Shown here: positions 14,684 to 38,235 of the stretch, piece by piece
Layout: the number at the start of each line of letters is the position of its first letter
Position numbering within the stretch: position 1 is the first letter of the stretch
IMG/VR virus record: IMGVR_UViG_3300041406_000077
Span: 1 to 38,327 of that record
DNA: 38,327 bases
Strand: one strand, 5' to 3'
Source: a virus
The notes under the pieces: model-generated
Told to the model about the DNA's origin: nothing
Seen by the model: only the letters and a program-made list of their open reading frames with translations
Databases searched by the model: none
Program-made: the position numbers and the translations under genes

Positions 14684-14761
14684 TTCGGGTTCCTGTCTGT
14701 GGCTGGTGTTCCTTGCTGACACGACTAACTATACACGGCTAAGCGTGTAAGGCAAGTGTTT

Positions 14762-14836
14762 ACTGCACTACTTATCCACTTATTCACAGAACGCTGTGGA
14801 CACTGCGCTACTGCGTTCCTTTCCCGCGTGGCTACT
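14762..14836. other. Candidate replication origin/centromere: DnaA boxes and repeats
   Basis: TTATCCACT (14772-14780) and TTATTCACA (14780-14788) fit the DnaA box TTWTNCACA, the second exactly; a weaker reverse box TGTGGACAC lies at 14795-14803. Interspersed are repeats of the type ACTGCRCTACT: at 14762, at 14802-14815 (ACTGCGCTACTGCG) and at 14831-14838 (GCTACTGC). The region directly precedes a class Ib-like parA, where such systems keep their centromere. It could be oriV, parS or both. Confidence 0.55.
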
Positions 14837-14845
14837 GCATTCCGT

Positions 14846-14862
14846 GTCTACTTGTTGTAGAC
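14846..14862. promoter_or_regulatory. Perfect operator overlapping the parA promoter
   Basis: GTCTACTTGTTGTAGAC has six-base perfect arms. Its right arm forms TAGACT (14858-14863), a -10 box placed so that transcription would start at about the A of the parA ATG (14872), with no ribosome-binding site: probably a leaderless message. Confidence 0.72.
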
Positions 14863-14871
14863 TCTGCGGTT

Positions 14872-15513
14872 ATGGAAACCATCGCCATAGCCAGCCTGAA
14901 AGGCGGAACTGGCAAAACAACATCCGCCGCTTACCTGGCGCACGCGTACCAGCAATTAGGCCGGCGCGTGGTCATCGTGGACGCCGACCCGCAAGGCTCC
15001 ATCCTGGACTGGGCCGAAACCGCCGACTGGTCCATCCCCACCGTGGGCCTTCCGTCCGCGCAGCTCCACAAACGCCTCGCCGGGATCCTTGACGGCCGCT
15101 ATGACGTGGTCATCATCGACACGCCGCCATGGACGCCAGGCGCGACAGACAAGGGCCGCGAACCGCTGACGTCCGGAATCGTCTTTAGCGCCCTGCGCGC
15201 GGCCGATACGGTGGTGATCCCGCTGGCCCCCACGATGATGGAACTGCGCCGGGTCACGGCGACCCTGAAAGCCATAGACGACGTCGCCCCGCTCCGCGAA
15301 CATGACCCGCGCGTCCGTGCCCTGCTGAACCGGACGAAAGCGAACGCGTCCAGCACCAAAGTGATCCGGTCGGCGCTGGAATCGCACGGGTGCGCCGTGC
15401 TGGGTGCTGAGATACCCAGCAGGGAACCCGTCGCGCAGTCCTTTGGCGACCGCCTGCCCTCGAACCTGTACGGCTACCTGTCCGCAGCAATGGAACTGGA
15501 GAAGAACAAATGA
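14872..15513 (+). CDS. parA: ParA-type partition ATPase
   Basis: 213 residues. The deviant Walker A is KGGTGKTT at residues 10-17, the A' motif is VVIVDADPQGS at 33-43 and Walker B is VVIIDTPP near 79-86. It lacks an N-terminal HTH, which with its short length matches class Ib plasmid ParA proteins that partner with a small ribbon-helix-helix protein. It moves plasmid copies apart before cell division. The stop overlaps the next gene by ATGA. In a phage without integrase this points to a plasmid-like prophage, as known for some mycobacteriophages carrying parABS in place of an integrase. Confidence 0.93.
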   Translation: METIAIASLKGGTGKTTSAAYLAHAYQQLGRRVVIVDADPQGSILDWAETADWSIPTVGLPSAQLHKRLAGILDGRYDVVIIDTPPWTPGATDKGREPLTSGIVFSALRAADTVVIPLAPTMMELRRVTATLKAIDDVAPLREHDPRVRALLNRTKANASSTKVIRSALESHGCAVLGAEIPSREPVAQSFGDRLPSNLYGYLSAAMELEKNK

Positions 15514-15821
15514 GCAAGGTAACAGACCTGACCGCCCGCGCCGCCCGCCTGGCAGGGAAGCCCGACGACGTCCAGGACGACGGCGAGGAACGCGCCGCGA
15601 CGGCCCCGCGGGCCAAGGACATCCGCATGACCGTGGACCTGTCGCCGGGCCTGTATAGGAAAGTGTGGGCGTACCCGGAGGACATGGACCTGCCCGCGCA
15701 GACGGGCAGGGCGCGGATCCCGATTGTGGAAGTGTTCCGGGCGCTGGTGGAGGAACTTGCAGTGAATCAGGAACTACGCAAAGCAGTGGCTAAACGGATA
15801 CGCTCCAACGTGTCCAAGTAG
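15510..15821 (+). CDS. parB: Small ParB-like centromere-binding partner
   Basis: 103 residues. A flexible charged N-terminus (residues 1-40) is followed by KDIRMTVDLSPGLYRKVWAY and IPIVEVFRALVEELAVNQEL, a strand plus two helices typical of ribbon-helix-helix proteins. The arrangement (flexible tail that stimulates ParA, RHH domain that binds centromere repeats) is that of class Ib partition partners. It is coupled to parA by ATGA. Identification rests on fold and neighbour. Confidence 0.75.
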   Translation: MSKVTDLTARAARLAGKPDDVQDDGEERAATAPRAKDIRMTVDLSPGLYRKVWAYPEDMDLPAQTGRARIPIVEVFRALVEELAVNQELRKAVAKRIRSNVSK

Positions 15822-15834
15822 GTGCATTTCATAT

Positions 15835-16014: not shown

Positions 16015-16296
16015 ATGACTGATACGCCGCACAGCCCGCGCATATCCGACCAGGCGCAGCACGAACCGGAGGAACGTTTTTACGATTCGGTGGGCAGGCC
16101 CAGGAAGCTCGCCGCAGGTGCCATGGCCGCGATGCAAAGGGAATTCCGGAAAGGTATTGGCACCAAGGAACTGGCCGAACGATATGGGGTGTCCAGGTCA
16201 CTGGTGCTGACCATCGTTTATTTCACTCCGAAAGGCCAGCCCAAACAGCAGCCGAAACCTAAGTCCAACGTCATCCAGTTCTCTAGGGCGTCCTGA
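16015..16296 (+). CDS. Helix-turn-helix protein, 93 residues
   Basis: AMAAMQREFRKGIGTKELAE followed by RYGVSRSLVLTIVYFTPKG is a resolvase/homeodomain-like HTH (Hin-type) over about residues 35-75, with a basic Lys/Gln-rich tail. No catalytic domain is attached. AGGAAAGG lies upstream, but a two-codon frame ATG-GAA-TGA at 16010 overlaps the start ATG at 16015. It heads the rightward operon that ends at 17922 and may regulate it or the replicon. Confidence 0.7.
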   Translation: MTDTPHSPRISDQAQHEPEERFYDSVGRPRKLAAGAMAAMQREFRKGIGTKELAERYGVSRSLVLTIVYFTPKGQPKQQPKPKSNVIQFSRAS

Positions 16297-17278: not shown

Positions 17279-17294
17279 GTGTAACATGGGTGCT

Positions 17295-18042: not shown

Positions 18043-18053
18043 GTGTGTTGGTG

Positions 18054-18146
18054 TTATTCCATGTCGCGGGTCAGCCACATGATGACGCCTCCGACCACCA
18101 CTATGGCGGCGCAGACGATAAGGACGGTTTGCACGGTCACGTCCAC
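18054..18146 (-). CDS. 30-residue membrane peptide at the end of the late operon
   Basis: MDVTVQTVLIVCAAIVVVGG then VIMWLTRDME, one hydrophobic span with a charged end. GTG 18146 directly follows the TAG of the upstream gene; GTG 18140 is an alternative. Its place after holin-type genes suggests a lysis role, but nothing more can be said. Confidence 0.6.
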   Translation of the reverse strand: MDVTVQTVLIVCAAIVVVGGVIMWLTRDME

Positions 18147-18455
18147 CTAGACGCCTTCCGTGAGGCGGCGGAATGCGCGGTCCACGTCGCGGGCGGCGCG
18201 GGCTTTCAGGTATCCGGCCAGGTTGTGCTTGACCATGACGGCGTCCAGGAACAGGGTTCCGGTCTGGAAGATGAACAGCCACCAGGTTATCCGGTCCACG
18301 CCGCCGATAAGCTGACCGCCAATGCTGATGCAGGACGCCAGCAGCGCGCAGCCCCACGCCCACAGCATCATGCGCGCGTGGGACAGCGTCGGCGGGTTCC
18401 GGGCGGACCAGACCAGGATGCGGCAGATTTCAGCCGCCTGGGTGCGTAGTTTCAT
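18147..18455 (-). CDS. Two-span membrane protein of the lysis region
   Basis: 102 residues. Two hydrophobic helices (LWAWGCALLASCISIGGQLI, ITWWLFIFQTGTLFLDAVMV) are followed by a basic, helical cytoplasmic tail (KHNLAGYLKARAARDVDRAF). It resembles the DUF-type membrane proteins often found beside actinophage holins. It may act as a holin partner or superinfection-exclusion protein; neither is proven. Confidence 0.68.
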   Translation of the reverse strand: MKLRTQAAEICRILVWSARNPPTLSHARMMLWAWGCALLASCISIGGQLIGGVDRITWWLFIFQTGTLFLDAVMVKHNLAGYLKARAARDVDRAFRRLTEGV

Positions 18456-18465
18456 GGTGTCTATC

Positions 18466-18768
18466 CTATGAGGGCGGCGGCGTGACCCGTTCGATGGCAG
18501 GGGACACGCCCGTGGGCTTCCACAGCGCACTGTAGCTGGACGCGCCCGTCAAGAAAATGAGCAGCGCCAGCCTGACGTAGTCGCCGGGCGTGAACAGCCC
18601 GGCCACCCACGCCGTCACCGCGGCCACGGCCAGATAAAAGCCAAAGGCCACCAGCGACTGCGTCCGGACGGACCATCTGGACTGCTGAATGATGGAAATG
18701 ACCGGCGGCGAAAAGAAACCCACACACAGCGCCCACAGTGCTGCGTTATCCAGGACCTGGTAATCCAT
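18466..18768 (-). CDS. Holin-like membrane protein
   Basis: 100 residues with three hydrophobic segments: about residues 8-27 (NAALWALCVGFFSPPVISII), 37-58 (LVAFGFYLAVAAVTAWVAGL) and 66-82 (RLALLIFLTGASSYSAL). Placement just after the amidase gene and size fit an actinophage holin, which opens the membrane so that the amidase can reach the wall. Start ATG 18768; longer reading upstream runs into the amidase gene. Confidence 0.72.
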   Translation of the reverse strand: MDYQVLDNAALWALCVGFFSPPVISIIQQSRWSVRTQSLVAFGFYLAVAAVTAWVAGLFTPGDYVRLALLIFLTGASSYSALWKPTGVSPAIERVTPPPS

Positions 18769-18779
18769 GACGGCCTCCG

Positions 18780-19499
18780 TCAGTCTGCCGGCCTGGCCAC
18801 GGATGCGAGGTCCAGGCCCAGGACGTCGATGGACGGCTGGATGGTCTGAATGGCGCCGTCCGCGTAAATCTTCATCCAGCCATTCGCTGCCATCCACTGG
18901 TAGGACTTCAGCAGCTCATCGCCGCCGATGTGCCGGCGCGTGATCCCGTCCCCGATCCAGACGTCAGGGTCATCCTTTTCCTTGCCGATAATCAGCATGT
19001 TGTCCTCCTGTAGCGGGGTAGCGACTGGCGCGGGTGCTGGGGACTCCCGCGCCAGCCGGTCCAAACGGGCAAGGTCCCACACGCCCGGGCATTGGGTGGC
19101 CGTGAAATAGTTGTGCGGCCGCAGCGGCAGGTTCCCAAAGGCGGCGCGCAATTCCCTAATCAGTTCACTGGCCGTCTGATAGTCGCCGTCGCTGGCGCGC
19201 GGGTTCAGTTCCAGCGACAGGTAATAGTTATTGCCCTCGCCGTAGGCGCCGTCACCCTGCCCCCAGGACAGCTGTGTGTCCGGGTCAAGCAGGCAGGCTA
19301 CGCGCCCGGCCTCCGCCACGTAATGGACGCTGGCCGTCCTGGACGCGCCGCCGTACACCAGATAATTGATGGTGGACTCAAAGGTGGGACGCTGCGCCGG
19401 ATCGCCCCAGTGATGAACACAAACGCCCCGGTAACGGTGCCCAGGTGGACGCGGATGGTAGAACGTGGCGCTGTGTTCGGTAATGAATTGGTAGCTCAT
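18780..19499 (-). CDS. Endolysin, N-acetylmuramoyl-L-alanine amidase
   Basis: 239 residues. An amidase_2/PGRP domain spans about residues 5-150: VCVHHWGDPA gives the first zinc His (29/30), and RPHNYFTATQCPGVWDLARL gives the second His and the Cys. A linker follows (ESPAPAPVATPLQEDN), then a C-terminal region of about 75 residues (DPDVWIGDGITRRHIGG...) that may bind the wall. It cuts the amide bond between muramic acid and L-alanine. There is no signal peptide, so it needs the holin. ATG 19499 overlaps the upstream stop by ATGA. Confidence 0.92.
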   Translation of the reverse strand: MSYQFITEHSATFYHPRPPGHRYRGVCVHHWGDPAQRPTFESTINYLVYGGASRTASVHYVAEAGRVACLLDPDTQLSWGQGDGAYGEGNNYYLSLELNPRASDGDYQTASELIRELRAAFGNLPLRPHNYFTATQCPGVWDLARLDRLARESPAPAPVATPLQEDNMLIIGKEKDDPDVWIGDGITRRHIGGDELLKSYQWMAANGWMKIYADGAIQTIQPSIDVLGLDLASVARPAD

Positions 19500-19792
19500 G
19501 ATGCCCTCCTGGACGCCCTCACCGGCCACGGCGGGATCCGGTCCGGTGCCACGCCCGCCTGGATGAGCAGCAGCCGCAACGCGCCGGCGTACTCTTCCAA
19601 ACTGCGCCTAAAGTCCGCCTCCGCCTGCTCGCGGTGTTCCGCGTCGGCCAGGCGCTCCAGCACTGACTGATTCTTGCGTTTCTCACTGACCGCCCGGCCC
19701 GACCGCCACGCCAGCAGCCCGTCGATAATCTTGGGAATGATCGCGGCCAGCCCGCCGATGCCCAGAATCGCGGTCCACAGCTCCGGGGTCAT
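19496..19792 (-). CDS. Membrane-anchored coiled-coil protein of the lysis region
   Basis: 98 residues. An N-terminal hydrophobic segment (LWTAILGIGGLAAIIPKIID) is followed by a charged helix (KNQSVLERLADAEHREQAEA), the layout of small actinophage membrane proteins upstream of the lysin. It could be a second holin-type protein or a spanin-like partner. ATG at 19792 lies two bases after the upstream stop. Confidence 0.68.
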   Translation of the reverse strand: MTPELWTAILGIGGLAAIIPKIIDGLLAWRSGRAVSEKRKNQSVLERLADAEHREQAEADFRRSLEEYAGALRLLLIQAGVAPDRIPPWPVRASRRAS

Positions 19793-19794
19793 CG

Positions 19795-20232
19795 TCAGTC
19801 CCTCCGCAGTCCTCTTGCAGGGTCCAGGTACGCCCAGGAAATGCGCTGGTAGCGCTTGAAAACGTCGCACAGCGCCACGACGACCAGCGCCACCACCAGC
19901 CAGATCCCGCCGGATGACCGTGGCGACAGGGCAAAAAACACCGCCGCGGGCAGCAGCAGCGCCCAGCCCAGGCCGGTGATGAGCAGCGCGACGCGTTCCA
20001 GCCACCAGTGCCCGGCCAGGACTGCGATGGTGCCGATCACGCCGCCGATAACCAGGGTGGACCCGACGCCCACGGACAGCAGTGGACCGATGGACCCGGT
20101 CAGGAACGTGGGCGCGCCCCCGACAGCAGCGAGCAGCCCGGCACCGCCGGCCATGACGTAGCCCGCCAGCTGCGCGGCATTGATTGCCAGCGGTTCACCC
20201 AGCAGGCTCCGCAGCGGGTGGGTCCTGGTCAT
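19795..20232 (-). CDS. Multi-span membrane protein
   Basis: 145 residues with about four hydrophobic segments (AAQLAGYVMAGGAGLLAAVG, STLVIGGVIGTIAVLAGHWW, VALLITGLGWALLLPAAVFF, GIWLVVALVVVALCDVF). The start MTRTHPLRSLLGEP at 20232 is set by the upstream stop at 20234. Similar proteins occur between tail genes and the lysin in actinophages, with holin or anti-superinfection roles suggested. The function is unproven. Confidence 0.7.
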   Translation of the reverse strand: MTRTHPLRSLLGEPLAINAAQLAGYVMAGGAGLLAAVGGAPTFLTGSIGPLLSVGVGSTLVIGGVIGTIAVLAGHWWLERVALLITGLGWALLLPAAVFFALSPRSSGGIWLVVALVVVALCDVFKRYQRISWAYLDPARGLRRD

Positions 20233-20233
20233 G

Positions 20234-21925
20234 TCAGGCCACCCTTTCCAGCGAGGGGTTCCAAAATTCATATGTGCCGCCGCCGCGGACCTGGAACGTT
20301 GCCGCCAGCGTCTGATTACTGCCAGCGGGGATGGTGTAGGTAGGTGTCAACAGGACTCCGGAGCGCGTCTGACTGCCCATGTTTTCGTTTTGCGTGCCTG
20401 CCACGCCGTTGGGGTTCGCTGTGGCGTTCCATTCCAGGTCCATGGCCACGCCTACGCCGTTTACTTCCAGGACCGCGTAAATGGCCTGCGTGTTGGCGGC
20501 AGGCGCGCTGTCCAGGCCCGTGGCTGAGTAGCCGACAGCAAACCTGAATTTCTGGCCCGGCGCGAATTCTGCCAGAGATTGCTGCAAGGTGGTGCTGCGG
20601 TAGAAGCGGATGGACCCGTTGGGCATGACGATGCGTAGTTTTTGCCCTGGCCTGTCCGTGAATGCCACCCTGGAATATGTGGGGTCCGTGCCGGTGGCGC
20701 CCACCACGGACCAGCCCGTGGGCACTGCTGTGGCCGTTCCGGAGAATGACCCGCCGTTGTTTTTCAGGATGTTCCGCGCGTCACCGGCTGGCAGCAGGAC
20801 GGGAACCTGCGGGATGATCGCGTCCAGTTTTCGCGCTAATTCCGCGCCTGCCGCGACGGCTCCGGGCGTGGCCAGGTGGACGCCGTCCCAGGAATATCCT
20901 GCGACAAAGCCACCGGTCACGGGGTCCATGGTGGCCAGTTCGATGTCTACCACCACATAATTCCGGCGCAGTATCGCCTGCGCGCGCAGCCACTGGTTGA
21001 TTTCCGCGCGCAGCGCTTTCTGGTTAGACGTCGCGGCGTCCCGCGGCGGTGCCGTGACCTGGATGATGTATTTACCGCTGGCCGTGGCCAGGTCCCAGAT
21101 ACTGTTATAGGCGTCCTTGGTCTGCTGTATGGTGCGCCAGCCCGCATCTATCCCGGTGACGTCATTTGTGGGTCCCCCAATGACGGCATAACCTGCATCC
21201 ATATCCACCAGGTCAGCCTGGACGCGTGCCAGGTAGGCGCCCGTGTCCTCGCCTCCGACGCCGCGATTGGACCATTCCAGCCGGTGCCCCAGCATCGAAT
21301 TACCCTGTGCGACGTAGCCGCGTGACGCTGGCCAGGGACGCAGCGGCTGCCACGCTGCGTCGCCAAAGTTGTAGTACTCGATGGAATTACCGAGCAGGAC
21401 AGCCTTGTTTTTGCGCGGCTGGACAAAGGTGGCGGCCAGCGCAGCACCCAGCGGCGCCGTCCTGTCCACAGCCTGGACTGCGGCGTCATCCTCAGTCAGG
21501 ACCCCGGCGCGCTGGATGCCAGCGTCCACCTGCTCATCCGTGGGTGCCACAGCTGCGGCCGCGGCCGTGGCTGCTGCCTCATCCGCAGACGCTGCGGCGT
21601 CAGCGGCGGCGAGCTGAGCCGTTTCGGCTCCAGCCCTCGCCGCCACAGCCTCATCCCGGAGACCTTTGTAGCTGTTGAAATAGCCGGAAAAATCGCCGGA
21701 CTTCCACATAATTTGCGGCAGCTCGGCGGTGAACGCCTGAATAAAGCCCAGGTGGTTGGAATTCAGCGGATTCGGCAGGTCGAAGCCGTACAGGTCTTTG
21801 AGCGGCAGCAGCGTGGTTCCTGCCGTGTCAAGCGGGTCATAAATGCTGATCGCGGCGTTTAGCACCACGTTGTCCGGGTTCAGCGGATCCACCACCAGTT
21901 GCATGTCAAAGGGGTAGGTAGTCAT
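20234..21925 (-). CDS. Tail tip/receptor-binding protein with SGNH hydrolase domain
   Basis: 563 residues. Residues 1-95 look like a virion-attachment domain. Residues 95-130 are an Ala-rich helical stalk. Residues 172-370 form an SGNH (GDSL-like) esterase: VLLGNS with Ser181, RGVGGED at 221-227, GGPTND with Asn254, and WDGVHL with Asp347/His350. The C-terminal 190 residues are a beta-rich, carbohydrate-binding-like module (FSGTATAVPTGWSVVGATG...). It probably removes acyl groups from a surface glycan to reach the receptor. AGGAAAGGAACC precedes the ATG. Confidence 0.85.
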   Translation of the reverse strand: MTTYPFDMQLVVDPLNPDNVVLNAAISIYDPLDTAGTTLLPLKDLYGFDLPNPLNSNHLGFIQAFTAELPQIMWKSGDFSGYFNSYKGLRDEAVAARAGAETAQLAAADAAASADEAAATAAAAAVAPTDEQVDAGIQRAGVLTEDDAAVQAVDRTAPLGAALAATFVQPRKNKAVLLGNSIEYYNFGDAAWQPLRPWPASRGYVAQGNSMLGHRLEWSNRGVGGEDTGAYLARVQADLVDMDAGYAVIGGPTNDVTGIDAGWRTIQQTKDAYNSIWDLATASGKYIIQVTAPPRDAATSNQKALRAEINQWLRAQAILRRNYVVVDIELATMDPVTGGFVAGYSWDGVHLATPGAVAAGAELARKLDAIIPQVPVLLPAGDARNILKNNGGSFSGTATAVPTGWSVVGATGTDPTYSRVAFTDRPGQKLRIVMPNGSIRFYRSTTLQQSLAEFAPGQKFRFAVGYSATGLDSAPAANTQAIYAVLEVNGVGVAMDLEWNATANPNGVAGTQNENMGSQTRSGVLLTPTYTIPAGSNQTLAATFQVRGGGTYEFWNPSLERVA

Positions 21926-21946
21926 CGCCGGTTCCTTTCCTGGCCG

Positions 21947-22927
21947 TCACCAGCCAATAGCCACCCAGTCCACGCGATGGACCTGGTTTTGCACTGCCTG
22001 GTAATTACCGTTGCCGTTGGAGTACGCGACGGCGTAGACGAAGTCCGCTTTGTGGCCCGTGTGCCACGGCGAGCCGGCGGCGCTGAACACCATGGCGCGG
22101 CTGATGGCCCGGTCCACGCTGGAATCGCCGTCCATGAGTAGGCAGGTAAGCAGCCCGTTGGGAAACGGCCGCGGGAACGTGATACGGGCGTAGCCGGAAT
22201 TGTCCGTCGTGTTCACGGCGGTCCCGCCCTGGATCTTGAACGCCGTTTGTCCCGCCGCCGGGGTGAAGTCCAGCGCGCCGCCGAAACCGTACAGCTCCAC
22301 GGATCCGACTTCCGTCATCTTGGTCCAGACGGCCAGGTCACCGGACCCTATGGTGTACTGCCAGACCACGCCGCCGATGTTTACCTTGGTGCCCAGCCGG
22401 TCCAGGTAGTTGCGGGCGAGGGCGTCCAGGGCGAGGACGCCGCCGTCGCCCTGCCAGCAGCGCAGGTCAATAATCTGTGTTGGCTGGGTCTGCCCGGCGG
22501 TCCACAGCACCAAAGCAAGCGGCTGGTCATCCAGGGTTCCCGGGTCATGTTCGCGCCCGGCGGGGATGGCCTTGGTGGATCCGCCTTCCACTTTCGTGAT
22601 GGTGGTGGGGCCGCCCACTGCCGGGGTCCAGTCCCGGCGGATGCAGATCAGGTCATAGCGGGACGTCCCCGCCGCCGGCGCGTTGCAGGTGACGGACACC
22701 GTGGCGTCCGAAATGTCCAGGACGCCGTGGCCCCAGGCGGTGCCCGCGGCGACGTTCACGGTCAGCGGCGTGGACGGGTGCGCGGTGACCTTGAAATCCG
22801 TAATGCCGTCCACGCCGTAGGATGAACCGATTTGCGGGTGCGACAGCGCCCAGTCCGTTTCCGTGACCAGGGACGCGGGAACGCCCGCTGACGTGTCGTA
22901 AAACGTGCTGGTAATGGTCACGGTCAT
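21947..22927 (-). CDS. Minor tail protein with gp53-like C-terminus
   Basis: 326 residues. The N-terminal 190 residues resemble upper baseplate or fibre-anchor proteins (VNVAAGTAWGHGVLDISDAT, YDLICIRRDWTP, QIIDLRCWQGDGGV). The C-terminal 110, from YARITFPRPFPNGLLTCLLM to VHRVDWVAIGW, match the gp53-like tail-fibre domain with its DW-AIG ending. It overlaps the upstream gene by ATGA. It is probably a fibre at the tail tip beside the SGNH protein. Confidence 0.78.
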   Translation of the reverse strand: MTVTITSTFYDTSAGVPASLVTETDWALSHPQIGSSYGVDGITDFKVTAHPSTPLTVNVAAGTAWGHGVLDISDATVSVTCNAPAAGTSRYDLICIRRDWTPAVGGPTTITKVEGGSTKAIPAGREHDPGTLDDQPLALVLWTAGQTQPTQIIDLRCWQGDGGVLALDALARNYLDRLGTKVNIGGVVWQYTIGSGDLAVWTKMTEVGSVELYGFGGALDFTPAAGQTAFKIQGGTAVNTTDNSGYARITFPRPFPNGLLTCLLMDGDSSVDRAISRAMVFSAAGSPWHTGHKADFVYAVAYSNGNGNYQAVQNQVHRVDWVAIGW

Positions 22928-24045
22928 TTCCTCCTTAGATCCCGGACGCCGGCCGCCACGGACGCCAGGGCGCGGGCGAACTGCTTGTCTGTGTTGTCGC
23001 TGATGTCGCCTATCGCCGGGATGACTTCCAGGCCGCCGTCCCGTGTCCAGGACAGCGACGCGGAGCGCAGCGTGTCCGTGATGACCAGCCCGTCCCCGAC
23101 CACCAAAGAAACCTGGTCCCCGACGTGGACGCCGCCCGGCCCGCCATACCGGAAAACGGACGATTCGGAAAGTTTCACGGACAAGCCGGACTTGGCGGCG
23201 GTTTCGATGAACGTCTCGGCGGCGCGTTCCCCGAACACGTCCCCGTCTCCGGAGTCGCGGGCGTCCCGGAACACTTCCGCGCGTTCGCCCAGCTCCGCGG
23301 CCAGGGCGGGATCCGTGTACCCGGCGAACTGCCGGGCGGTGCCCTCACCCTGACCGCCCACAATCACGTCCGTGGCTTCCGCTTCCTGCGCCGTCCAGGA
23401 CCATTCCAGGACCACGCCGCCGGCTTCCGTCAGGTTCCTGGGGTGCAGCTGGGGTTCAAAGCAGTCCACCACCAGCCCGGCACCGGACTGGCGCACCGTG
23501 GCGCCGATGCCTGCGGAGTCCACCGCCGGGAACAGGCGGTCGGCCAAAGGGTGGAAACGGAACGCCGCAGTGATGTCGCCGCCGCGGCCCAGGTCGGCGG
23601 CCACGGTCACCGGTTCACCCAGGCGGGTGACGGCGTTGGCGGTCACAGCCGTTTTCAGGACCGTTTCCGCCGGCCCCGAAATGGTGTGATACTCCGACGT
23701 CTGCGCGCCCAATCCGGCACCAGGCACCGGCCAGCCCAGGACCCTGTGGAACAGCCGGAAGTCATCCACCACGGAAAACGTCACAGTCCCGTCCGTGCCC
23801 GGGCCTTTCCCGGCCCTGACCCTGACGGGACCGCTAATGCAGTGCTCATCCTGGTACGTGATGACCAGCCGGGCGCCGCGTTCCATCAGCAGCGGCAGTT
23901 TCGCGTTCCGTGCGCCCACGGTCACGTCAGCGCTGCTTAGTTCGTTGTAGTTGACCGTGACGTCCAGGGTTTCCGGGTCGCCCAGCCAGCCCTGGCGGAC
24001 AAAGTCCTTGTCATAGATGGTGATGCGGAACGGGTTGTCTGCCAT
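22924..24045 (-). CDS. Gp37-like minor tail (baseplate hub) protein
   Basis: 373 residues from ATG 24045, which shares its A with the upstream stop; the 105 extra residues readable upstream are an off-frame shadow of the Dit-like gene. FRITIYDKDFVRQGWLGDPE and GARLVITYQDEHCISGPVRV match the Siphovirus Gp37-like family, and FRLFHRVLGWPVP is typical. These are Tal-like hub components between the Dit ring and fibres. No peptidase motif is seen. Confidence 0.78.
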   Translation of the reverse strand: MADNPFRITIYDKDFVRQGWLGDPETLDVTVNYNELSSADVTVGARNAKLPLLMERGARLVITYQDEHCISGPVRVRAGKGPGTDGTVTFSVVDDFRLFHRVLGWPVPGAGLGAQTSEYHTISGPAETVLKTAVTANAVTRLGEPVTVAADLGRGGDITAAFRFHPLADRLFPAVDSAGIGATVRQSGAGLVVDCFEPQLHPRNLTEAGGVVLEWSWTAQEAEATDVIVGGQGEGTARQFAGYTDPALAAELGERAEVFRDARDSGDGDVFGERAAETFIETAAKSGLSVKLSESSVFRYGGPGGVHVGDQVSLVVGDGLVITDTLRSASLSWTRDGGLEVIPAIGDISDNTDKQFARALASVAAGVRDLRRK

Positions 24046-25007
24046 CACCACGCCCGCCAATACAAGGGCACCAGTTCGATCCGGACAGTGCCGTCCCCGG
24101 TGATGGACACGTTCAGTGGCGAAGTCCCGCCGGCTGGGATCGCGGCGAAATCCACCGCGCCGTCCAGATCCGCGGTCCGGTCCACGGGGTTGGTCAGGAT
24201 AGGCGGATCGCCTGCTGTGTAGTCGTATTCGATGGCGGTCTGCACCCTGGGGTCCGTGTCCACCACCAGCGCCTTGCCGTCCGCGACGGTAAAGGGCACT
24301 TCCACGACACTGTCCCCGACGCCCATATGCGCGGCAGTGGCAGGCCCGATGACCGTCCACACCGGCCAGGCGTCCTCATCCCCCGGGTTGTTGATGGACG
24401 CGCTGGCCGTGGTGTGGCCCGGCGCTATGTTGACCAGGTGCGGCCCGGTTTCCTCATAGAAGTCCTCGCCCGTGGCTGACTTCCAGCCAGCCGTGCGCGC
24501 CGGTCCGGCCCAAAACGGCTGATCCGCGACCAGCAGCAGCGAATACGCCGCCCATCGCGCCTGTGCCGGGTCCAGTGCAAACTGGTGATCCTCCGGGATC
24601 AGGCGCAGGCGCAGGCTCCGCCGGGACCCCGCGCCTGCCGGGCTGATGGTCAGTACGCCCTCACGGGCAGGGTGCAGCGACTTCCAGAATGCGCGGTCAC
24701 GGGCCACCCACTCCGCAGATGATCCGTCGCTGAACAGCAGCACCGGCAGCACCACCTGGCGCGGCTCCGCGCTGGCCCCGGTGAACACCTGCCCGGGCAC
24801 CGCCGGGGACTGCCTGGCCCACTGCCGGAACGGCGGCATATGCAGGCCCTCCACACCCTCTTTCAGCAGCACCACGCCGCCGTCAGGGTCCGCGAGGTTC
24901 CACACGGACCCGTCCCAGCCGGTCCAGCTAACCTCTGTCTGCACCACCAGCGCCGGCGGTGCCAGTGCGCCAGGGGCAGGCAGCGCGTAGATGATCCCCG
25001 ATGGCAT
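24045..25007 (-). CDS. Dit-like distal tail protein
   Basis: 320 residues. TEVSWTGWDGSVWNLADPDG, then GVVLLKEGVEGLHMPPFRQW and the pattern QVVLPVLLFSDGSSAEWVAR followed by a C-terminal galectin-like half (WPVWTVIGPATAAHMGVGDS) match the phage tail/Dit family of actinophages. It forms the ring joining tail tube and baseplate. It directly follows the tape measure gene, as usual. Confidence 0.82.
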   Translation of the reverse strand: MPSGIIYALPAPGALAPPALVVQTEVSWTGWDGSVWNLADPDGGVVLLKEGVEGLHMPPFRQWARQSPAVPGQVFTGASAEPRQVVLPVLLFSDGSSAEWVARDRAFWKSLHPAREGVLTISPAGAGSRRSLRLRLIPEDHQFALDPAQARWAAYSLLLVADQPFWAGPARTAGWKSATGEDFYEETGPHLVNIAPGHTTASASINNPGDEDAWPVWTVIGPATAAHMGVGDSVVEVPFTVADGKALVVDTDPRVQTAIEYDYTAGDPPILTNPVDRTADLDGAVDFAAIPAGGTSPLNVSITGDGTVRIELVPLYWRAW

Positions 25008-25010
25008 GGC

Positions 25011-27770
25011 CTAACCTCCTGCTGTGATGGCGGACAGGTTGGCCAGCGTCGCGGCGCGGCGCTTCCTGGATTCCATGGCGTCCACGATGTGCTCCGGGTC
25101 CCCGTAGACGTTCCCGTGGATGTGCAGCTGGGTCGCGGACCCGTTCCCGGCGGCGCGGAACGTAGCACTGGTACCGCCGGGAACGCCCGGCCCGCCGATT
25201 GTGACCAGGCCATCCAGGGCCGCCTGCATGCGCCGGGATTCCCGCGGTGCCTGTTTCAGGAAGCCCTCACCTATCATTTCCATCCACCACATGGCCACGG
25301 TGGACGGGGACCGGATGCCCAGGACTGTTTCAATCGGCCCGCGGATGGCTTCCGGCAGGACGTTCAGGATGGCCTTGGCGACGGACCCGGCCATGTTCTG
25401 CACGCCGGCGACCAGACCGTCTATCAGGTTTTTACCGGTATCCAGCAGCCAGGTCCCTGCGCCTTTCAGGAATTCCCCGATTTTGCCGGGCAGGTCCCGG
25501 AAGAATTGCAGGAAATTGTCCATGAAGCCGGATACGCCGCGGATGATGTTGTCCCAGGTGTCCCGGAAGAAGTTGCCGATATTGGCCAGGGTGCCCTCAA
25601 TGAATTCCTTGGCCATGCCGATATACATGAGGATGCCGGACCAGATTTTGCCCACTGCCCCGGTCACCCAGTTGACTATGTTGTTCCAGGTGTCGGAGAA
25701 GAAACGGCCAATATTGCCCAGGGTGTCGCTGATGAAGCCCCACACCAGGCCGAAAACGCTGGTGATGATGGACCAGACAATTTGAAGCGCTCCGGTCACC
25801 AGCGCCACTATCGTGTTCCAGATCCCGGAAAAGATATTTACTATCCCTTCCCACACCTGGGACCAGTTCCCGGAAATAATGCCGGTCACCACCTGGATGA
25901 TGCCCATGACAATCTGCATCACGGTCCCGATAATTTGGGCGATGACCCCGAACACGGTAGTCACCACGGGCATCAGGGCCTGAATTATCGGGATCAGCAG
26001 CCCTGCCAGCATTTGCACCAGCGGCAGGACGGCGCTGGTCACGGCCCCGAAAATTTCCACCACCATGGGCATCACCGTGGCGATAAGCTGCATCAGGATC
26101 GGAGCCAGCGAGGCCAGCAGCTGGGTAACCAGCTGCCCGACCACGCCCACAATCTGGGCGATGACCGGAGCCAATTGGGTGAACAGCCCGGCGAGCATGC
26201 CCACCATGTCCAGCACGGCGGGCATGACCGCCAGGAATACGCCCGCGAGGGTCCCGGACAGCAGCGTGGACAGTTGCAGGAAGGTGGGCATCAGTGAGGC
26301 AAGCGCCTGCGTCAGCGCCCCGCCCAGGGATGTGGCCAGGGTGCCGAACAGTCCCACGATTTGCGGCAGCATCGGCCCCAGCGCCGTAAATATCAGCGTC
26401 AGCGGTGAGAATGCCTGCCACAGTTGGAACAGTTGCGGCAGCAGTTGAGCGAACACCGGACCCAGTTGGCCGAAAATTTGCCCGACGGCACCGAACACCT
26501 GACTAAACACCGGAGCCATGGACAGCGCCATTTCGCGGACGCTAAACAGGAAATCCACAAACCCGGAATCCTCTTCCATCCCGAAAATAGGCCCCTTGAA
26601 ATCCCCGGTGGCGAGCAGCGACACCACGCCGCCGATCCCGGAACCGAACGCGGAAATCTTGGCGATGACCCCGTCCATGTTGTCCGCAAGGAAACCCATG
26701 CCCTTGCCCGCCAAATCGAACACGGCCGACCCGATGGGTTCCAGTGCCAGCAGCGCCTTGTTTTTGACCAGCTGCCAGTTCTCCGCGGCGTCCGCGGTTT
26801 CCTTGCCCAGCCCCAGGATGGTGTCCCCGCTCCCGGCGGCGGCGGCGGACAGGTCATCCAGGTTCACCTTGCCGGACTGGATCGCCCCCACGAACTGCGC
26901 GGCGCCCTTGGTGCCGAACACCTTGGATGCCAGATCCAGCGCGCCGGCGGTGTCCCCTGCTGACACGAAACCCTGGATTTCGCCCGTAACCCGCTTGAAT
27001 GCCGCCTGCGGTTCCTCGCCGTCCTTGGCCAGGGTCACCAGCGCCTTGGACATGGACCCCATGACCTGGGACGTGTTCAGACCGGCTTTGTCCAGGGTTC
27101 CGGCCAGCGCGGCGGTCTGCTCGAAACTGAAACCCAGATTCTGCAGCGGAGCCGCAGACGTCTGCACCTGCGCGGCCAGTTCGTTCATGCCCACGCCCGT
27201 GGCCTGCGACACACGGAAAAGGGTGTCCATGGCACCCTCTACCTTGGTGCCCTCAATCCCAAAGGCGTTAAACGCCGCCGTCGTGGCGTCCACGTCCACG
27301 GTTTGGCCCAGGATGTTGCCCGCCTGGATGTATTGCTGCGAGACGGTGGAAAGGGTGTCCCCGGACAGGCCCAGGCGCTGATTCAGCGCGGCCACGGTGT
27401 CCCCGGCGGCCTGGAAGCTGGTGGGCACGGACGTGGCGACCTGCTGGGCGACGTCCACCAGCCCGTCCAGGGCGGCACCGGACGTGCCGGTGCCCACGCG
27501 GATGCTGTCCGTCACGTCATCAAAAACGGCCCCGACCTTATACAGCCCCACCGCAGCGCCGCCCACGGCAGCGCCCACGGCGGCGGCCCCGACAGCAGCA
27601 GCCCCGGCGACCCCGGCGAAACCAGCCGCGAACGTCCCACCAGCGGCCTTGCCCGCCTTGTCCCCGGCGGCGTTTCCGGCAGGGACCAGCGATTCGGTGA
27701 TTTTGCCCTGCGCGTCGCGCATGGACGGGACCAGTGCGATGTAGGCGGTCGCTAGTTCGACGTTGGCCAC
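25011..27770 (-). CDS. Tape measure protein
   Basis: 919 residues, the longest gene. The N-terminus MANVELATAYIALVPSMRDA and the Gly/Ala-rich hydrophobic stretch (residues 45-75), then the phage minor tail domain (TAGVGMNELAAQVQTS-like core around 190-290), are typical. The middle (about 420-700) is hydrophobic and repetitive (LAPVIAQIVGVVGQLVTQLL), and a FFxDTWxNI motif repeats (RFFSDTWNNI, NFFRDTWDNI). By the usual 1.5 Å per residue the tail would be about 140 nm. The start is GTG 27770 after GGGAGGGACCA. Confidence 0.95.
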   Translation of the reverse strand: MANVELATAYIALVPSMRDAQGKITESLVPAGNAAGDKAGKAAGGTFAAGFAGVAGAAAVGAAAVGAAVGGAAVGLYKVGAVFDDVTDSIRVGTGTSGAALDGLVDVAQQVATSVPTSFQAAGDTVAALNQRLGLSGDTLSTVSQQYIQAGNILGQTVDVDATTAAFNAFGIEGTKVEGAMDTLFRVSQATGVGMNELAAQVQTSAAPLQNLGFSFEQTAALAGTLDKAGLNTSQVMGSMSKALVTLAKDGEEPQAAFKRVTGEIQGFVSAGDTAGALDLASKVFGTKGAAQFVGAIQSGKVNLDDLSAAAAGSGDTILGLGKETADAAENWQLVKNKALLALEPIGSAVFDLAGKGMGFLADNMDGVIAKISAFGSGIGGVVSLLATGDFKGPIFGMEEDSGFVDFLFSVREMALSMAPVFSQVFGAVGQIFGQLGPVFAQLLPQLFQLWQAFSPLTLIFTALGPMLPQIVGLFGTLATSLGGALTQALASLMPTFLQLSTLLSGTLAGVFLAVMPAVLDMVGMLAGLFTQLAPVIAQIVGVVGQLVTQLLASLAPILMQLIATVMPMVVEIFGAVTSAVLPLVQMLAGLLIPIIQALMPVVTTVFGVIAQIIGTVMQIVMGIIQVVTGIISGNWSQVWEGIVNIFSGIWNTIVALVTGALQIVWSIITSVFGLVWGFISDTLGNIGRFFSDTWNNIVNWVTGAVGKIWSGILMYIGMAKEFIEGTLANIGNFFRDTWDNIIRGVSGFMDNFLQFFRDLPGKIGEFLKGAGTWLLDTGKNLIDGLVAGVQNMAGSVAKAILNVLPEAIRGPIETVLGIRSPSTVAMWWMEMIGEGFLKQAPRESRRMQAALDGLVTIGGPGVPGGTSATFRAAGNGSATQLHIHGNVYGDPEHIVDAMESRKRRAATLANLSAITAGG

Positions 27771-30796: not shown

Positions 30797-31174
30797 CTAC
30801 TTGGTGCCTACGTCATCCGGCCTGCGCGCTTTGTTGGCCACTGCCGTGACGTTTTTGGCCTTGGTTCCTTTGGGTGGTGCGGGTTCCTTGACCGGTTCCT
30901 GGTCGGGTTCCTTTGGCGGTTCCTCAGCAGGCGGCTGTGGTTCCTTTGGCGGTTCCTCAACAGGCGGCTTAGGTTCCTCCACCGGTTCCTTTGGTGTGTC
31001 TGTCACGGGTTCCTCCTGCTTGATGCCCAGGCGCTGGGCGTCGGCCTTGTTCAGCCGCAGTGTCGTCTTGATGCCGTTGACTTCGACGTCGTATGTCTCC
31101 AGGCCATCGGGGTCCTCAGTGAGGACGCGCCCCCGCCCCGGTCGGGGGACGCGTCCGTCCACTGGGTCACGCAC
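30797..31174 (-). CDS. Small Pro/Glu-repeat protein after the capsid gene
   Basis: 125 residues from GTG 31174, overlapping the capsid stop by eight bases. A short folded part (LETYDVEVNGIKTTLRLNKA, DAQRLG) resembles small domains found after actinophage capsid genes. It is followed by about 45 residues of EEPP-KEP type repeats and a basic AKNVTAVANKARRPDD end. It may be a head decoration or connector accessory protein. The repeats are imperfect copies of about 11 residues and could vary in number between relatives. Confidence 0.7.
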   Translation of the reverse strand: MRDPVDGRVPRPGRGRVLTEDPDGLETYDVEVNGIKTTLRLNKADAQRLGIKQEEPVTDTPKEPVEEPKPPVEEPPKEPQPPAEEPPKEPDQEPVKEPAPPKGTKAKNVTAVANKARRPDDVGTK

Positions 31175-32462
31175 GGACGTCCGTATCGACAAACGCCGTG
31201 GGACGTGTGACACCGAACGCCACGCGTTCCTCCGCGAGAATGGCCACCAGGTTGCGGATGAAGAAATCCGCGTGGCTGTCCGTGATGGACACCGTGGTCT
31301 GTTCGCGGTCCCACAGCACAGCCTTGGAGAAGTCACCCACCAGGCCGCGGCCGGCGGTGATCGCCTCAGACTCGATGATCGGCAGGCCCCACAGCGTCCT
31401 GGGTCCCAGCACGAACGGCCCGCCGCCCAGGAACTGGCCCGTGCCTGCGCCCTCGCGGGCCAGGTCGATGACCTCCACTTCCTCCGGGTGCAGCACCACG
31501 GCGTTTGGCGCGACACGTCCCACCACGCGGGCCTTGGTGATGGCCTTGCGTACCGTGGTGAAAATATCGGTGGTCCATGCCTGGGTCTGGATCCCGGACG
31601 TGGTCAGGATGCCGGGCAGGTTCTCGCCGGTGCCGTCACCCAGAAGAATCTGGTCCTCTTCCTCTTCCGCGATGTCGGCGCGCAGCTCATCGTTAATGAG
31701 CCCTTCCAACTGCCCGACATCGGCCAGGGCGCGCTTGGTCGCCGGGACCCACTCAGCAATCGTCTTGACCGTGGCCGTCCGGCGCGCGAACGCCCATGCG
31801 CCTTCCGGCTTGACGCCGCCGTCCACGTCCGTGACCTCCGTGCCGTCGATGACCGCGGAGCTGGTCGCTTCCGGGACCGGCGCGGCCGCGTTCGTGTGGC
31901 TGGTCTGCACGACGTACTCCACCGTGTCGGATGCGGTCCGGCGGACGCTGATGGCGTCGCGCAGGGTCAGCCGGCGGCGGCCCAGGGATTCCAGGATGCC
32001 GGTATCCTCCGACGTCACAAACACGCCCGCGCTGGTGGAATCGGCCCCGGTGAACAGACCCTTAACGCTGATGGGGTCCGTCTGGAAATGCGCTTTCTCC
32101 GGGACGCGTCCCTTGAACGGTGCCATGGCGGACTTGAATTCCGCGCTGGACACCACTTCCAGGCCCAGGTTCCGGACCCGGCGCAGCGTGGCGGCGCTGT
32201 CCTTTTGCGCGTCCACGTCCTTGCCTGCGGGTTCCCCGATTTCCTCGGCCAGCGCCCGGGCCTGCGCCAGCACTTCCTGGTCTGCCTTGGCGGCGCGCAG
32301 CGCGGCCAGGTGGTCCCGGGCCTCGGCCATCTTGGCATTGAATTCGGCCAGCGTGTCGCCTTCCAGGGCGACGCCGTCAGCCTCGGCCTTTTCCGCGATT
32401 TCGCGGGCAGCCTTGGCGGCGGCCGCGGCGGCGGCCTGCAGCCGCCTGATCTTCTCAGTCAT
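31167..32462 (-). CDS. Major capsid protein, HK97 fold
   Basis: 431 residues from ATG 32462 with GGAGA seven bases upstream; ATG 32480 lacks a ribosome site. Residues 1-110 are a charged, Ala-rich coiled coil, the scaffold (delta) domain removed by the protease. The shell part includes LGRRRLTLRDAISVRRTASD, the E-loop region PEATSSAVIDGTEVTDVDGG, the spine NDELRADIAEEEEDQILLGD, GTGENLPGILTTSGI and the A-domain LGPRTLWGLPIIESEAITAG. Gene order protease-capsid supports it. Confidence 0.95.
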   Translation of the reverse strand: MTEKIRRLQAAAAAAAKAAREIAEKAEADGVALEGDTLAEFNAKMAEARDHLAALRAAKADQEVLAQARALAEEIGEPAGKDVDAQKDSAATLRRVRNLGLEVVSSAEFKSAMAPFKGRVPEKAHFQTDPISVKGLFTGADSTSAGVFVTSEDTGILESLGRRRLTLRDAISVRRTASDTVEYVVQTSHTNAAAPVPEATSSAVIDGTEVTDVDGGVKPEGAWAFARRTATVKTIAEWVPATKRALADVGQLEGLINDELRADIAEEEEDQILLGDGTGENLPGILTTSGIQTQAWTTDIFTTVRKAITKARVVGRVAPNAVVLHPEEVEVIDLAREGAGTGQFLGGGPFVLGPRTLWGLPIIESEAITAGRGLVGDFSKAVLWDREQTTVSITDSHADFFIRNLVAILAEERVAFGVTRPTAFVDTDVRA

Positions 32463-32530
32463 TTGGGTTTCTCCTGTCATGGGATTTTTGCGTATCTACT
32501 GAATTACTTGGGCGCGTATGGGAGTGCCTA

Positions 32531-32609
32531 CGTCGTGCAGTACCGCCGTAAAGACGTATAGACGTCATGCAGTGCTGACGTGATGCAGTAGTGCAGTGAC
32601 TACTTAGAC
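32531..32609. repeat. Iteron-like repeats upstream of the capsid gene
   Basis: The motif CGT-S-R-TGCAGT-R occurs at 32531, 32563 and 32579 (spacings 32 and 16), with a fourth TGCAGT at 32592. Read on the other strand, 32598-32583 (CACTGCACTACTGCAT) matches 14801-14816 near parA in 14 of 16 bases. TAGAC half-sites lie at 32559 and 32605. The 140-base gap 32463-32603 between capsid and protease holds no gene. Confidence 0.6.
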
Positions 32610-33362
32610 ACTTGCCTCCAGTTCGGCGGCGTCCACCTGCGCCCTCCATGCCAGGATCCGTGCGGACGGGTCCGGTGCGGGTTCCTCGGCCTTGACGCTG
32701 CCCGCGCCCTCGGCCTTGACCTCGCCCGTCCCGCTGGCCTTCTCCTGATCCTTGATAACCTCCGCGGCCGCGAGGACGCCGTCTATCGCGTCCCGCGCCC
32801 CGCGCAGGCTGTCCACATGCTTACCGGACAGCACACGGCCCTCTTTCAGGCCGCCCGCCAGCCCGTCCGCCAGCGCCTTCACCGCCAGGATTTCCGTTTC
32901 CTGGTTCGCGCCGATCAGCACTATGGAGACTTCATAGAGCTTTAGTTCGTGCAGCTCATAGACGTCCTGGCCGTCCAGCTGCCCCAGGGATCCACGCACC
33001 ACGTCATAGGCGAAAGACATCTGGGACGCGCGCCGGCCTTTGAGCAGCCGGTGGACCTGGGCGGCTTTCGGGTTCTCCAGGTCCAGCAGCCCGCGAACAT
33101 ACAGGCCCTTGCCGTCCTCGCGCGCCTCCACGACATGGCCCAGGTTGTAGTCAGGGTCCGCCATGACGTGCGAATAGAGGACGGGCAGGAAGTTCCCGGA
33201 GCGCGCCCAGTCGGCCAGGGTGTTGGCGAACGCGCCGGGCATGACCACGTCCCCGTAACTGTCGGCGTTGCCGAACACGGACGCGTAGCCCTCAAATTCG
33301 CCCTCGGCCAGACCGTCGGCGGGTCCTGCCTTGAATCGGACCTGAATGTCCTTGGTTCTCAC
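32604..33362 (-). CDS. Prohead protease, HK97 (S78) family
   Basis: 252 residues from GTG 33362, six bases after GGGAGG. EFEGYASVFGNADSYGDVVM is the family's opening, LPVLYSHVMADP has the catalytic His, and ASQMSFAYDVV the catalytic Ser; LYEVSIVLIGANQETEIL is the conserved strand before the C-terminal helix. It digests the capsid scaffold domain and itself during maturation. The start lies inside the 3' end of the inserted HNH gene. Confidence 0.93.
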   Translation of the reverse strand: MRTKDIQVRFKAGPADGLAEGEFEGYASVFGNADSYGDVVMPGAFANTLADWARSGNFLPVLYSHVMADPDYNLGHVVEAREDGKGLYVRGLLDLENPKAAQVHRLLKGRRASQMSFAYDVVRGSLGQLDGQDVYELHELKLYEVSIVLIGANQETEILAVKALADGLAGGLKEGRVLSGKHVDSLRGARDAIDGVLAAAEVIKDQEKASGTGEVKAEGAGSVKAEEPAPDPSARILAWRAQVDAAELEASV

Positions 33363-33849
33363 TGTGACCTCCCTGGCCCCGTAGTAGATAGTCAATCGCC
33401 GCCTGAAGCGTTTGGATGTCGTCCCTGAAATGACCTAGGGCCAAGTTGCAGTGATGGCACAGCAAGCCCCGGACCGTCCCCGTGTCGTGGTCATGATCCA
33501 CAGAGAAAGTCCTCGCGGCGGGGTCTGTGGATCGGCAAATGGCGCATTGGCCATTCTGTTCTGCCAGCATCCGGTGATAGTCCGCTGGCACCATCCGATA
33601 GCGAACCCATAGTCCGACGGCCCATCGTTCCTCTGTCGTGCGCTTTGGGCGGTTTTGGCTCTGGCGTTTCACCGCTTCCGGATTCGCGGCCTTCCACGCC
33701 AGTGACTTGGCTTTCGCGCAGTCCCGACAGTATGAGTCCAGTCCGGAGCGCATCCGCGTATTCACGCGGAACGCCTCCGCTGGCTTGTCTTCTCCGCAGA
33801 TAAAGCACACTTTCGATACAGGCGTTTCCCGCACCACTTTCCAGGCCAT
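33292..33849 (-). CDS. Endonuclease VII-type HNH nuclease inserted in the head operon
   Basis: 185 residues. Cys pairs FICGE and YCRDCAKAKS stand at the N-terminus. The core is QCAICRSTDPAARTFSVDHD, then HDTGTVRGLLCHHCNLALGH and LQAAIDYLL, the Endonuclease_VII signature (DH, N, Cys4 zinc). It lies between portal and protease, where phages normally have none, and its last 24 codons overlap the protease start in another frame. It is probably a free-standing homing endonuclease. Confidence 0.88.
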   Translation of the reverse strand: MAWKVVRETPVSKVCFICGEDKPAEAFRVNTRMRSGLDSYCRDCAKAKSLAWKAANPEAVKRQSQNRPKRTTEERWAVGLWVRYRMVPADYHRMLAEQNGQCAICRSTDPAARTFSVDHDHDTGTVRGLLCHHCNLALGHFRDDIQTLQAAIDYLLRGQGGHSENQGHSGPIQGRTRRRSGRGRI

Positions 33850-37743: not shown

Positions 37744-37999
37744 CCTTGTCCGCCTCCTTCCGCGCGTCCAGGACCTTACGCCCGGACGGCGTCAGCCCCA
37801 ACTGATCGCACGCTTTCAGATAGACGGACTGGGTGACGTTATCGAACCTGTTGTCTATGACCGGCCAGTCCGGGTCATCCAGGCGCTCCGCCATCATCAT
37901 CAGCACCGCCACCGCGCCCTCATCCATGGCCGTGATGATGCCCTCACGCTTGGCCGCCTGCACGGACTCATTCGTGACGTGCCAGATTTCGCCCTGCAC
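37676..37999 (-). CDS. terS: Terminase small subunit, complete right copy
   Basis: 107 residues from GTG 37999, matching the start position of the left copy. EGIITAMDEGAVAVLMMMAE, RLDDPDWPVIDNRFDNVTQS and YLKACDQLGLTPSGRKVLDA are the helices of actinophage small terminases; a basic Ala/Lys tail follows. The frame stays open upstream for 76 codons, but those codons overlap the membrane peptide gene and the hairpins and are not protein-like. It selects the packaging site for the large subunit. Confidence 0.85.
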   Translation of the reverse strand: MQGEIWHVTNESVQAAKREGIITAMDEGAVAVLMMMAERLDDPDWPVIDNRFDNVTQSVYLKACDQLGLTPSGRKVLDARKEADKGGKLAQLRAVQGGAKTSARKRA

Positions 38000-38001
38000 G
38001 G

Positions 38002-38076
38002 CTAGCGCCTGATACCAAACAGGCCCACCACCAGGATGAGCAGCAGCAGAATAACGATGAGCCAAAGCGGGTCCAT
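38002..38076 (-). CDS. 24-residue single-span membrane peptide, right copy
   Basis: Encodes exactly the same peptide as 244-318 (MDPLWLIVILLLLI... ending GIRR) with synonymous base changes. ATG 38076 has AAAGGAC upstream; TAG 38002 lies two bases before the terS GTG. It is probably co-translated with terS. Confidence 0.7.
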   Translation of the reverse strand: MDPLWLIVILLLLILVVGLFGIRR

Positions 38077-38235
38077 GACCGTGTCCTTTCCGTGGTGTCC
38101 CTATACTGGGTGTGGCAGTGGCCGGTGAGGTTCGCTTTTCGGGAGTAGGGCGAACCCATGACCCGGACGCCAGCCGCCGATTCCTATAGGCGGCTACGCC
38201 CCCGCAGGTTGGGACTTGCGGGGGCACTTCCGTTT
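38077..38235. other. Non-coding hairpin segment, candidate cos region (right copy)
   Basis: Has the same three hairpins as the left copy. GCCCCCGC/GCGGGGGC at 38198-38225 is unchanged. The GGTTCGCT stem has one altered base (AGCG to GGCG, still able to pair as G-U), and one base in the middle hairpin's loop differs. Confidence 0.5.

Follow-up and report, generated by a model that had tools for sequence, protein, structure and literature searches.

The gap between the capsid maturation protease gene and the major capsid protein (MCP) gene in the IMG/VR virus record IMGVR_UViG_3300041406_000077 (38327 bases, the whole stretch being referred to here as the window) contains eleven contiguous direct repeats of 8 bp, or octads, and these very probably form a parS-type array of the phage's own partition system, which would pair a ParA ATPase with a ParB of the ribbon-helix-helix (RHH) type. 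A shorter array of the same repeat lies upstream of parA; the capsid-gap array, being the longest uninterrupted one, is probably the main centromere of a plasmid prophage. Dimers of the small RHH-like partner of ParA would bind side by side, one per octad, the array upstream of parA would serve both as a partition site and in autoregulation, and the array between protease and MCP would engage ParA in the extrachromosomal prophage. The window represents a sequence-defined case of an apparent plasmid-segregation site inside the virion-assembly operon of a phage, with a kin phage similar at another gap, and at the capsid-gap array a direct connection of partition with the control of late genes can be put to the test.

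Octad arrays of the window

An earlier note on this DNA had described CGTSRTGCAGT repeats upstream of the capsid gene, and these are exact at 32531, 32563 and 32579 on the plus strand, with spacings of 32 and 16. The plus-strand repeats are real, but the unit on the minus strand is 8 bp, the 11-mer being one octad and part of the next read on the other strand, and the array is larger than had been described; a search for further copies, which the note had suggested, listed five other matches, each with one mismatch. The claimed resemblance to the parA region is also present, the 16-mer at 32598-32583 (minus strand) matching 14801-14816 (plus strand) in 14 of 16 positions, and with up to two mismatches there were two matches in the window (self included) against 0.03 expected in shuffles.

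Within the capsid-gap array AC occupies positions 2-3 in 11/11 octads, position 4 is G or T in 11/11 and position 1 is a pyrimidine in 9/11. A scan for self-matches at lags of 8, 16, 24 and 32 had its highest value in the window at the capsid gap (z 7.4), with the parA gap joint second (z 4.1) and tied with a site at 11039; a 96-b version gave 7.5 for the capsid gap, 4.5 for a site at 11055 and 4.4 for the parA gap, in third place. The peak at 11039-11055 extends from the last part of one frame into the beginning of another and was judged not octad-like. When either gap was shuffled 5000 times with its dinucleotides kept, the observed 8-bp score was never attained. In the parA gap, which has the same 8-bp register, the first four AC octads are contiguous (14761-14792) and at most four stand in a row; those keeping AC include TACTGCAC, TACTTATC, CACTTATT, CACTGCGC, TACTGCGT and TACTGCAT.

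A position model trained on 72 b of the parA gap alone and scanned over both strands of the window scored its own training site at 40.8 and the capsid gap at 38.3, followed by the opposite (plus) strand at the MCP side of the capsid gap (16.2), the parB end (14.8) and the parA-gap flank (9.0), with the background, that is the best outside the par locus and capsid gap, starting from 6.5 and running down. The top scores in 100 dinucleotide-shuffled versions of the window had a mean of 9.4 and a maximum of 20.8; the capsid gap itself scored 35.8 on that scale. Conversely, with a model trained on the capsid gap, the parA gap came second (28.0) and the parB end came third (13.6). Array matches in the window were confined to the par locus and the capsid gap, in a scan that scores eight octads jointly and would miss isolated single ones. 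A chance origin of the repeats was ruled out by the shuffles of the 8-bp scan, the model scores on the shuffled window and the shuffles of the 16-mer.

Among the features that characterise an RHH-type ParABS centromere are at least four contiguous short (7-8 bp) non-palindromic repeats, here eleven, the same repeat beside parAB, here demonstrated by models from the parA and capsid gaps that each find the other gap, and a ParA-type Walker ATPase, which is also present; further ones would be an RHH fold of the ParB partner, its binding to the site and the stabilisation of a low-copy replicon by the site with ParAB. In the delta/omega system of plasmid pSM19035 an RHH ParB binds contiguous short non-palindromic repeats, in direct or inverted orientation, at six sites, and full activation of ParA needs at least four contiguous repeats (PMC9499535; statements on cited papers refer here and below to passages of them). 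By that rule no other site in the genome is as good a centromere candidate as the capsid gap; contiguous runs in the parA gap do not exceed four octads. The parS sites of pSM19035 differ from those of the window in that their 7-bp WATCACW units lie over promoters, whereas the window has 8-bp units and its longest array stands in the late operon without a recognised promoter.

Related sites in other phages and partition loci

Ten outside models, each from the strongest array found in its own stretch, were scanned over the window (handles with L or G denote loci and genomes compared) and for eight of them the capsid gap was the top site. Models from upstream of parA in Mycetocola, Cryobacterium and Clavibacter found their four best window sites in the capsid gap, parA gap and parB end, followed by a drop; the scores with the Mycetocola model (L090) were 24.8 and again 14.3 for the capsid gap, 11.2 for the parA gap, 9.0 for the parB end and -7.7 for the next. 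The capsid gap was also top for Cryobacterium L198, Clavibacter L091 and the phages L132, L134 and L124, as well as for the Brachybacterium model (L092), with 13.5 versus 10.1 for an unrelated site, and for L127, at 10.7 only. Over 83 loci (80 MCP loci plus L085, L086 and L109, some being fragments short of the capsid gap) the Mycetocola model scored 18.9-23.8 at the capsid gap in L002, L003, L004, L006 and L109 and -3.6 or less in the other 78, and the Clavibacter model 25.7-28.0 in the five array-bearing loci and 12.6 or less in the rest. The Mycetocola, Clavibacter and Cryobacterium ParA proteins are 51%, 49% and 48% identical to that of the window, and these loci resemble it in having a related partner and octads upstream of parA whose models recognise its sites, but they are not phages as far as seen and their arrays lie beside parA. 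The ParA systems of actinobacterial plasmids and phages have in common a recognisable family of 8-bp sites, which can assist in locating centromeres by sequence.

RedRock, a cluster A mycobacteriophage, was used as a positive control. Its prophage is extrachromosomal, with no integrase gene, and its parS-L and parS-R, each reported to consist of eight direct 8-bp repeats, are recognised by ParB (PMC7157519). With a model from its own par region, scanned over 49.0 of 53.3 kb, only two strong sites were found, at 27833 (before parA) and 28706 (parB end), with the next at -3.3; they were equated with parS-L and parS-R by number, type and place. RedRock is like the window in its ParA (34.8% identical), small ParB and 8-bp arrays, and unlike it in that the arrays flank parAB, that no remote site was present in the part scanned and that the octad is different; its ParB gives no match to the partner of the window.

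Among 20 ParA loci with a small partner, several of which (L135, L136, L127 and others) had partners deemed related by position after parA and general look only, the strongest 8-bp array was no more than 500 b from parAB in 16, with 3.3 expected by length. This count leaves out RedRock, L133, which shares its partner with L132, and L082 and L083, whose par DNA is 100% identical to that of the window, and 61 weaker ParA matches (L137-L197) were outside the survey. The corresponding figure for other ParA-like loci used as controls, hand-picked, mostly for long flanks, from 78 other genome loci, was 11/50, with 5.0 expected. The four exceptions among the partner loci are L128 (G001), L136, L132 and L134. 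At the level of sequence, the shared octad model, the outside models and the arrays beside ParA and small partner give good support to the suggestion in the earlier note of a common binding protein and of a second partition (or centromere) site.

Octad arrays in L132 (3325-3420) and L134 (5122-5200) lie ~5-7 kb from parA, ahead of a clamp-like gene which we take to encode a sliding clamp. Further remote octad matches occur in G027 and G028; those found with the own-par model of G027 were poorly separated (19.6, 17.3, 17.2 and 15.6) and only the array before the clamp-like gene was kept. In L129 (6887-7000) and L130 (948-1060) the strongest 8-bp repeats are inside the 5' part of the partner gene, where an array would also be coding.

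The capsid-gap array is kept in six records (window, L002, L003, L004, L006 and L109) in four distinct versions, L002 being the same as L004 there and L003 the same as L109. Between the window, L002 and L003 the AC columns vary in 1/22 cases compared with 25/66 for the other columns (Fisher p 0.0025), L006 keeps AC in 9/9 octads, and the inverted octad at the protease-side edge is identical in all six records. L109 and L083 stem from one metagenome (3300041999), and L083 coincides with window 6601-25510 over 18910 b. The kin phage G025 (MCP 77% and ParA 55% identical) has an array around the gap after the terminase gene, at ~2245-2382, which its own model scored at 24.7 with the next best at 6.2; shuffles reached at most 10.1 versus 21.8 for this array on the scale of the shuffles. 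In G002 and G003 large arrays lie downstream of parAB, where the window has a weak counterpart and G024 a clearer one, and the capsid-gap array may be a relocated or amplified copy of such a usual parAB-side array. A remote match in G003 at 7568 was discarded, being weak (12.8) and inside an open frame.

Table 1. Features of the window bearing on the octad arrays
Feature	Position	Strand	Remarks
Capsid-gap array	32511..32598	-	unbroken row of 11 direct repeats of 8 bp, consensus YACKNCNN, oriented with MCP transcription
Inverted octad CTACTTAG	32600..32607	+	at the edge next to the protease gene, whose stop codon it overlaps
Two inverted octads CTACTGAA TTACTTGG	32496..32511	+	MCP-side edge; differ in L006
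MCP gene	31167..32480	-	downstream of the capsid-gap array
Capsid maturation protease gene	32604..33395	-	upstream of the capsid-gap array; from gene order and tblastn
parA-gap array	14761..14856	+	same 8-bp register; AC at positions 2-3 in 8/12 octads
Weak (vestigial?) octad site, parB 3' end	15761..15824	-	mostly in coding sequence; clearer counterpart in G024
ParA-like partition ATPase	14872..15513	+	phrog_164 E 4.3e-36; Pfam AAA_31 and CbiA above cut-offs
Small ParA partner	15510..15821	+	RHH-like by our reading; proposed octad-binding ParB
Helix-turn-helix (HTH) protein	16015..16296	+	among 13 records only in ParA phages; rival binder or palindrome binder
Sigma-70-like promoter TTGCCT-16-TATAGT	14728..14755	-	for divergent gene 14336-14722; adjoins the parA-gap array
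Palindrome TACACG-N6-CGTGTA	14732..14749		overlaps the sigma-70-like promoter; second copy 17266-17283

Candidate binding proteins and alternative readings

The small partner of ParA is the proposed binder of the octads and was found in 7/13 records, exactly those with ParA. In its predicted structure helices occupy residues 46-58, 61-65, 72-85 and 87-101, and the block-mean pLDDT (predicted local distance difference test) exceeds 90 for residues 41-100; residues 36-43 may, by our reading of the model, be the ribbon. A PDB sequence search with the partner alignment gave three matches, with E 0.36 or worse, and tblastn of the partner in phages gave no match.

A number of observations weigh against the partition assignment. 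The partner model has no assigned strand (a lone chain cannot pair the ribbon strand), its fold matches are weak, the best including Reg576 (Z 3.8) and NikR (Z 3.4), both RHH regulators, and it matches no Pfam family at the levels searched. The models from RedRock and from Pseudonocardia L199 do not put the capsid gap first, and the control ParA loci are themselves somewhat enriched for nearby 8-bp arrays. Octad models are also not private to their own phage; that from G003 scores the capsid gap of the window at 37.5, above the 35.8 of the window's own model, and the terminase gap of G025 at 45.1, so a one-to-one match of protein and site is not claimed. Covariation of the partner's strand sequences with the octads across phages was apparent at first, and was dropped as the cross-table scores were shared between phages. 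Lastly, the ParA kin G001, G002, G003 and G025 are without an array at the capsid gap, and near the parAB of G001 no strong array was seen (the scans covered 40000 b of G001 and as much of G025). The earlier note had held that relatives lacking the repeat at either place would refute its reading; the absence from the capsid gap of these four goes part of the way there, although the array of G025 is elsewhere in the late operon.

It is possible, though on the unlikely side, that the array is mainly a transcriptional switch, at which an RHH-ParB or other regulator bound across the protease-MCP gap would act as a roadblock, holding down capsid gene expression in the prophage and giving way during lytic growth. 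The stoperators of cluster A phages, which are repressor sites, act in such a manner, blocking elongation, and they lie mostly in one orientation to transcription and in most cases away from promoters (PMC6550527). The octads of the capsid gap likewise run with transcription, a scan of this gap for sigma-70-like promoters found none, and RHH ParBs are known to control genes whose promoters overlap parS (PMC9499535). The position of the array is also suggestive. A folding test found a hairpin and U-run just before MCP in 19/75 gaps and a stricter finder adds L023; the strict finder on its own gave 5/75 and was replaced by the folding test, and gap counts are without loci too short upstream of MCP (such as L005, L008, L017, L033, L062 and L074). 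In the 20 nearer kin records examined (MCP 67-78%; L007, L009-L016, L018-L026, L028 and G025, some near-identical, with L011 = L012 and L014 = L015 in the hairpin segment) a strong GC hairpin and U-run precedes MCP in every case, and by the folding test the hairpin is absent in the array clade (window, L002, L003, L004 and L006) and in 50 more distant kin. As the nearer kin have the hairpin and the window clade has the array without it, the array occupies the place of a terminator-like hairpin. The octad arrays that precede the clamp-like gene in L132 and L134 also count for this reading. On the other hand, stoperators are 13-bp sites, scattered with up to ~30 per genome, whereas in the window the scan of eight octads jointly placed tandem arrays only in the par locus and the capsid gap, and in G025 the hairpin is still present while the array is found at the terminase gap. 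The kin hairpin has the look of an attenuator, or of a processing site in the interval from protease to MCP.

A role of the capsid-gap array in capsid transcription is nevertheless plausible within the partition assignment itself. Centromere and late-gene silencer might be one element, with bound ParB both tethering the prophage to ParA and, as a substitute for the kin hairpin, stopping transcription from entering the capsid gene, a combination put forward tentatively and considered rather unlikely. If true, the virion genes would be switched on at lytic entry by the very loss of the partition complexes. A regulator that couples capsid expression to the state of replication, which the earlier note gave as its other option, is possible: the scan found no sigma-70-like promoter in the gap, but the array has the position of the kin hairpin.

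That the common binder is some other phage protein, above all the HTH protein at 16015-16296, with the linkage to ParA incidental, is improbable. The distribution of this protein is that of the partner, 7/13 records and exactly the ParA phages, which counts in its favour and against the partner. However, tblastn did not detect it in the Mycetocola, Cryobacterium, Clavibacter and Brachybacterium stretches (all but Mycetocola being slices), which have a partner match and an 8-bp array, and tandem direct octads would suit RHH proteins whereas the palindrome TACACG-N6-CGTGTA would suit an HTH protein. Two further candidates do not track the arrays and were rejected, namely the ParB/Srx-like protein at 2909-3871, present in 1/13 records, and a second HTH protein at 17223-17498, present in 13/13 records, including integrase phages without arrays. 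The ParB/Srx-like domain of the former was labelled by reading of the sequence, and it occurs in the window and in 0/12 related records.

Replication iterons or an RNA element are very improbable, for although short tandem repeats look iteron-like, iterons being bound by a replication initiator at an origin, and a putative origin lies just upstream of parA in the plasmids of some mycobacteriophages (PMC7157519), virion genes adjoin the capsid gap, whose RNA folding is ordinary (z -0.73), and Rfam at gathering thresholds gave no match over the window.

Prophage lifestyle and comparison with known systems

The partition assignment fits with what can be gathered of the lifestyle of the phage, a soil phage that probably lives as a plasmid prophage, ParA-positive and without a recognised integrase. 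Among 26 hand-chosen records (G025 not among them, some being fragments) ParA was found in 6 and a tyrosine integrase in 18, never both, with two having neither, and a serine recombinase domain was found in 0/10 records searched, the window and six other ParA records included. The late genes of the window are akin to those of Arthrobacter phages such as Kuleana and TaylorSipht. A tblastn search with MCP against plasmids found no close plasmid form, all 24 records being below 60% identity. Positions 1-478 of the window are 96.9% identical to 37759-38235, making the ends of the record redundant, and a closed map would therefore be ~37.8 kb, on which the arrays are ~17.7 and 20 kb apart, going the two ways round. 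Such ends suggest that the genome is circular or terminally redundant and that strain variation entered its assembly.

There are precedents for partition sites remote from the par operon. Plasmid pMF1 has such sites, with repeats similar to an 8-bp motif (PMC3235114), and prophage N15 has four inverted-repeat centromere-like sites with the SopB protein (PMC7205306). Both are like the window in the remoteness of their sites, and placement before a capsid gene was not met in the passages on them. The separate elements are, as far as the passages go, all in print: mycobacteriophages have 8-bp parS arrays (PMC7157519), RHH parS can be multi-site and overlap promoters (PMC9499535), centromere-like sites can be dispersed (PMC3235114) and prophages have sites that block elongation (PMC6550527). 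Open-access titles and abstract starts on phage parS in late or capsid regions and on parABS of Arthrobacter phages did not describe the present arrangement among the matches listed. What appears to be new here is a phage with its largest parS-type array inside the virion operon, no such case being among those literature matches.

The palindrome TACACG-N6-CGTGTA beside the parA-gap array occurs twice in the window against 0.00 expected from shuffles. It is absent from G002, L122 and the stretches of Kuleana and TaylorSipht searched, and exact or near copies occur in G024, G001, G003, G025 and L124, mostly beside par arrays. It is possibly an operator of a ParA-phage repressor, and our guess is that the HTH protein at 16015-16296 has its natural target there.
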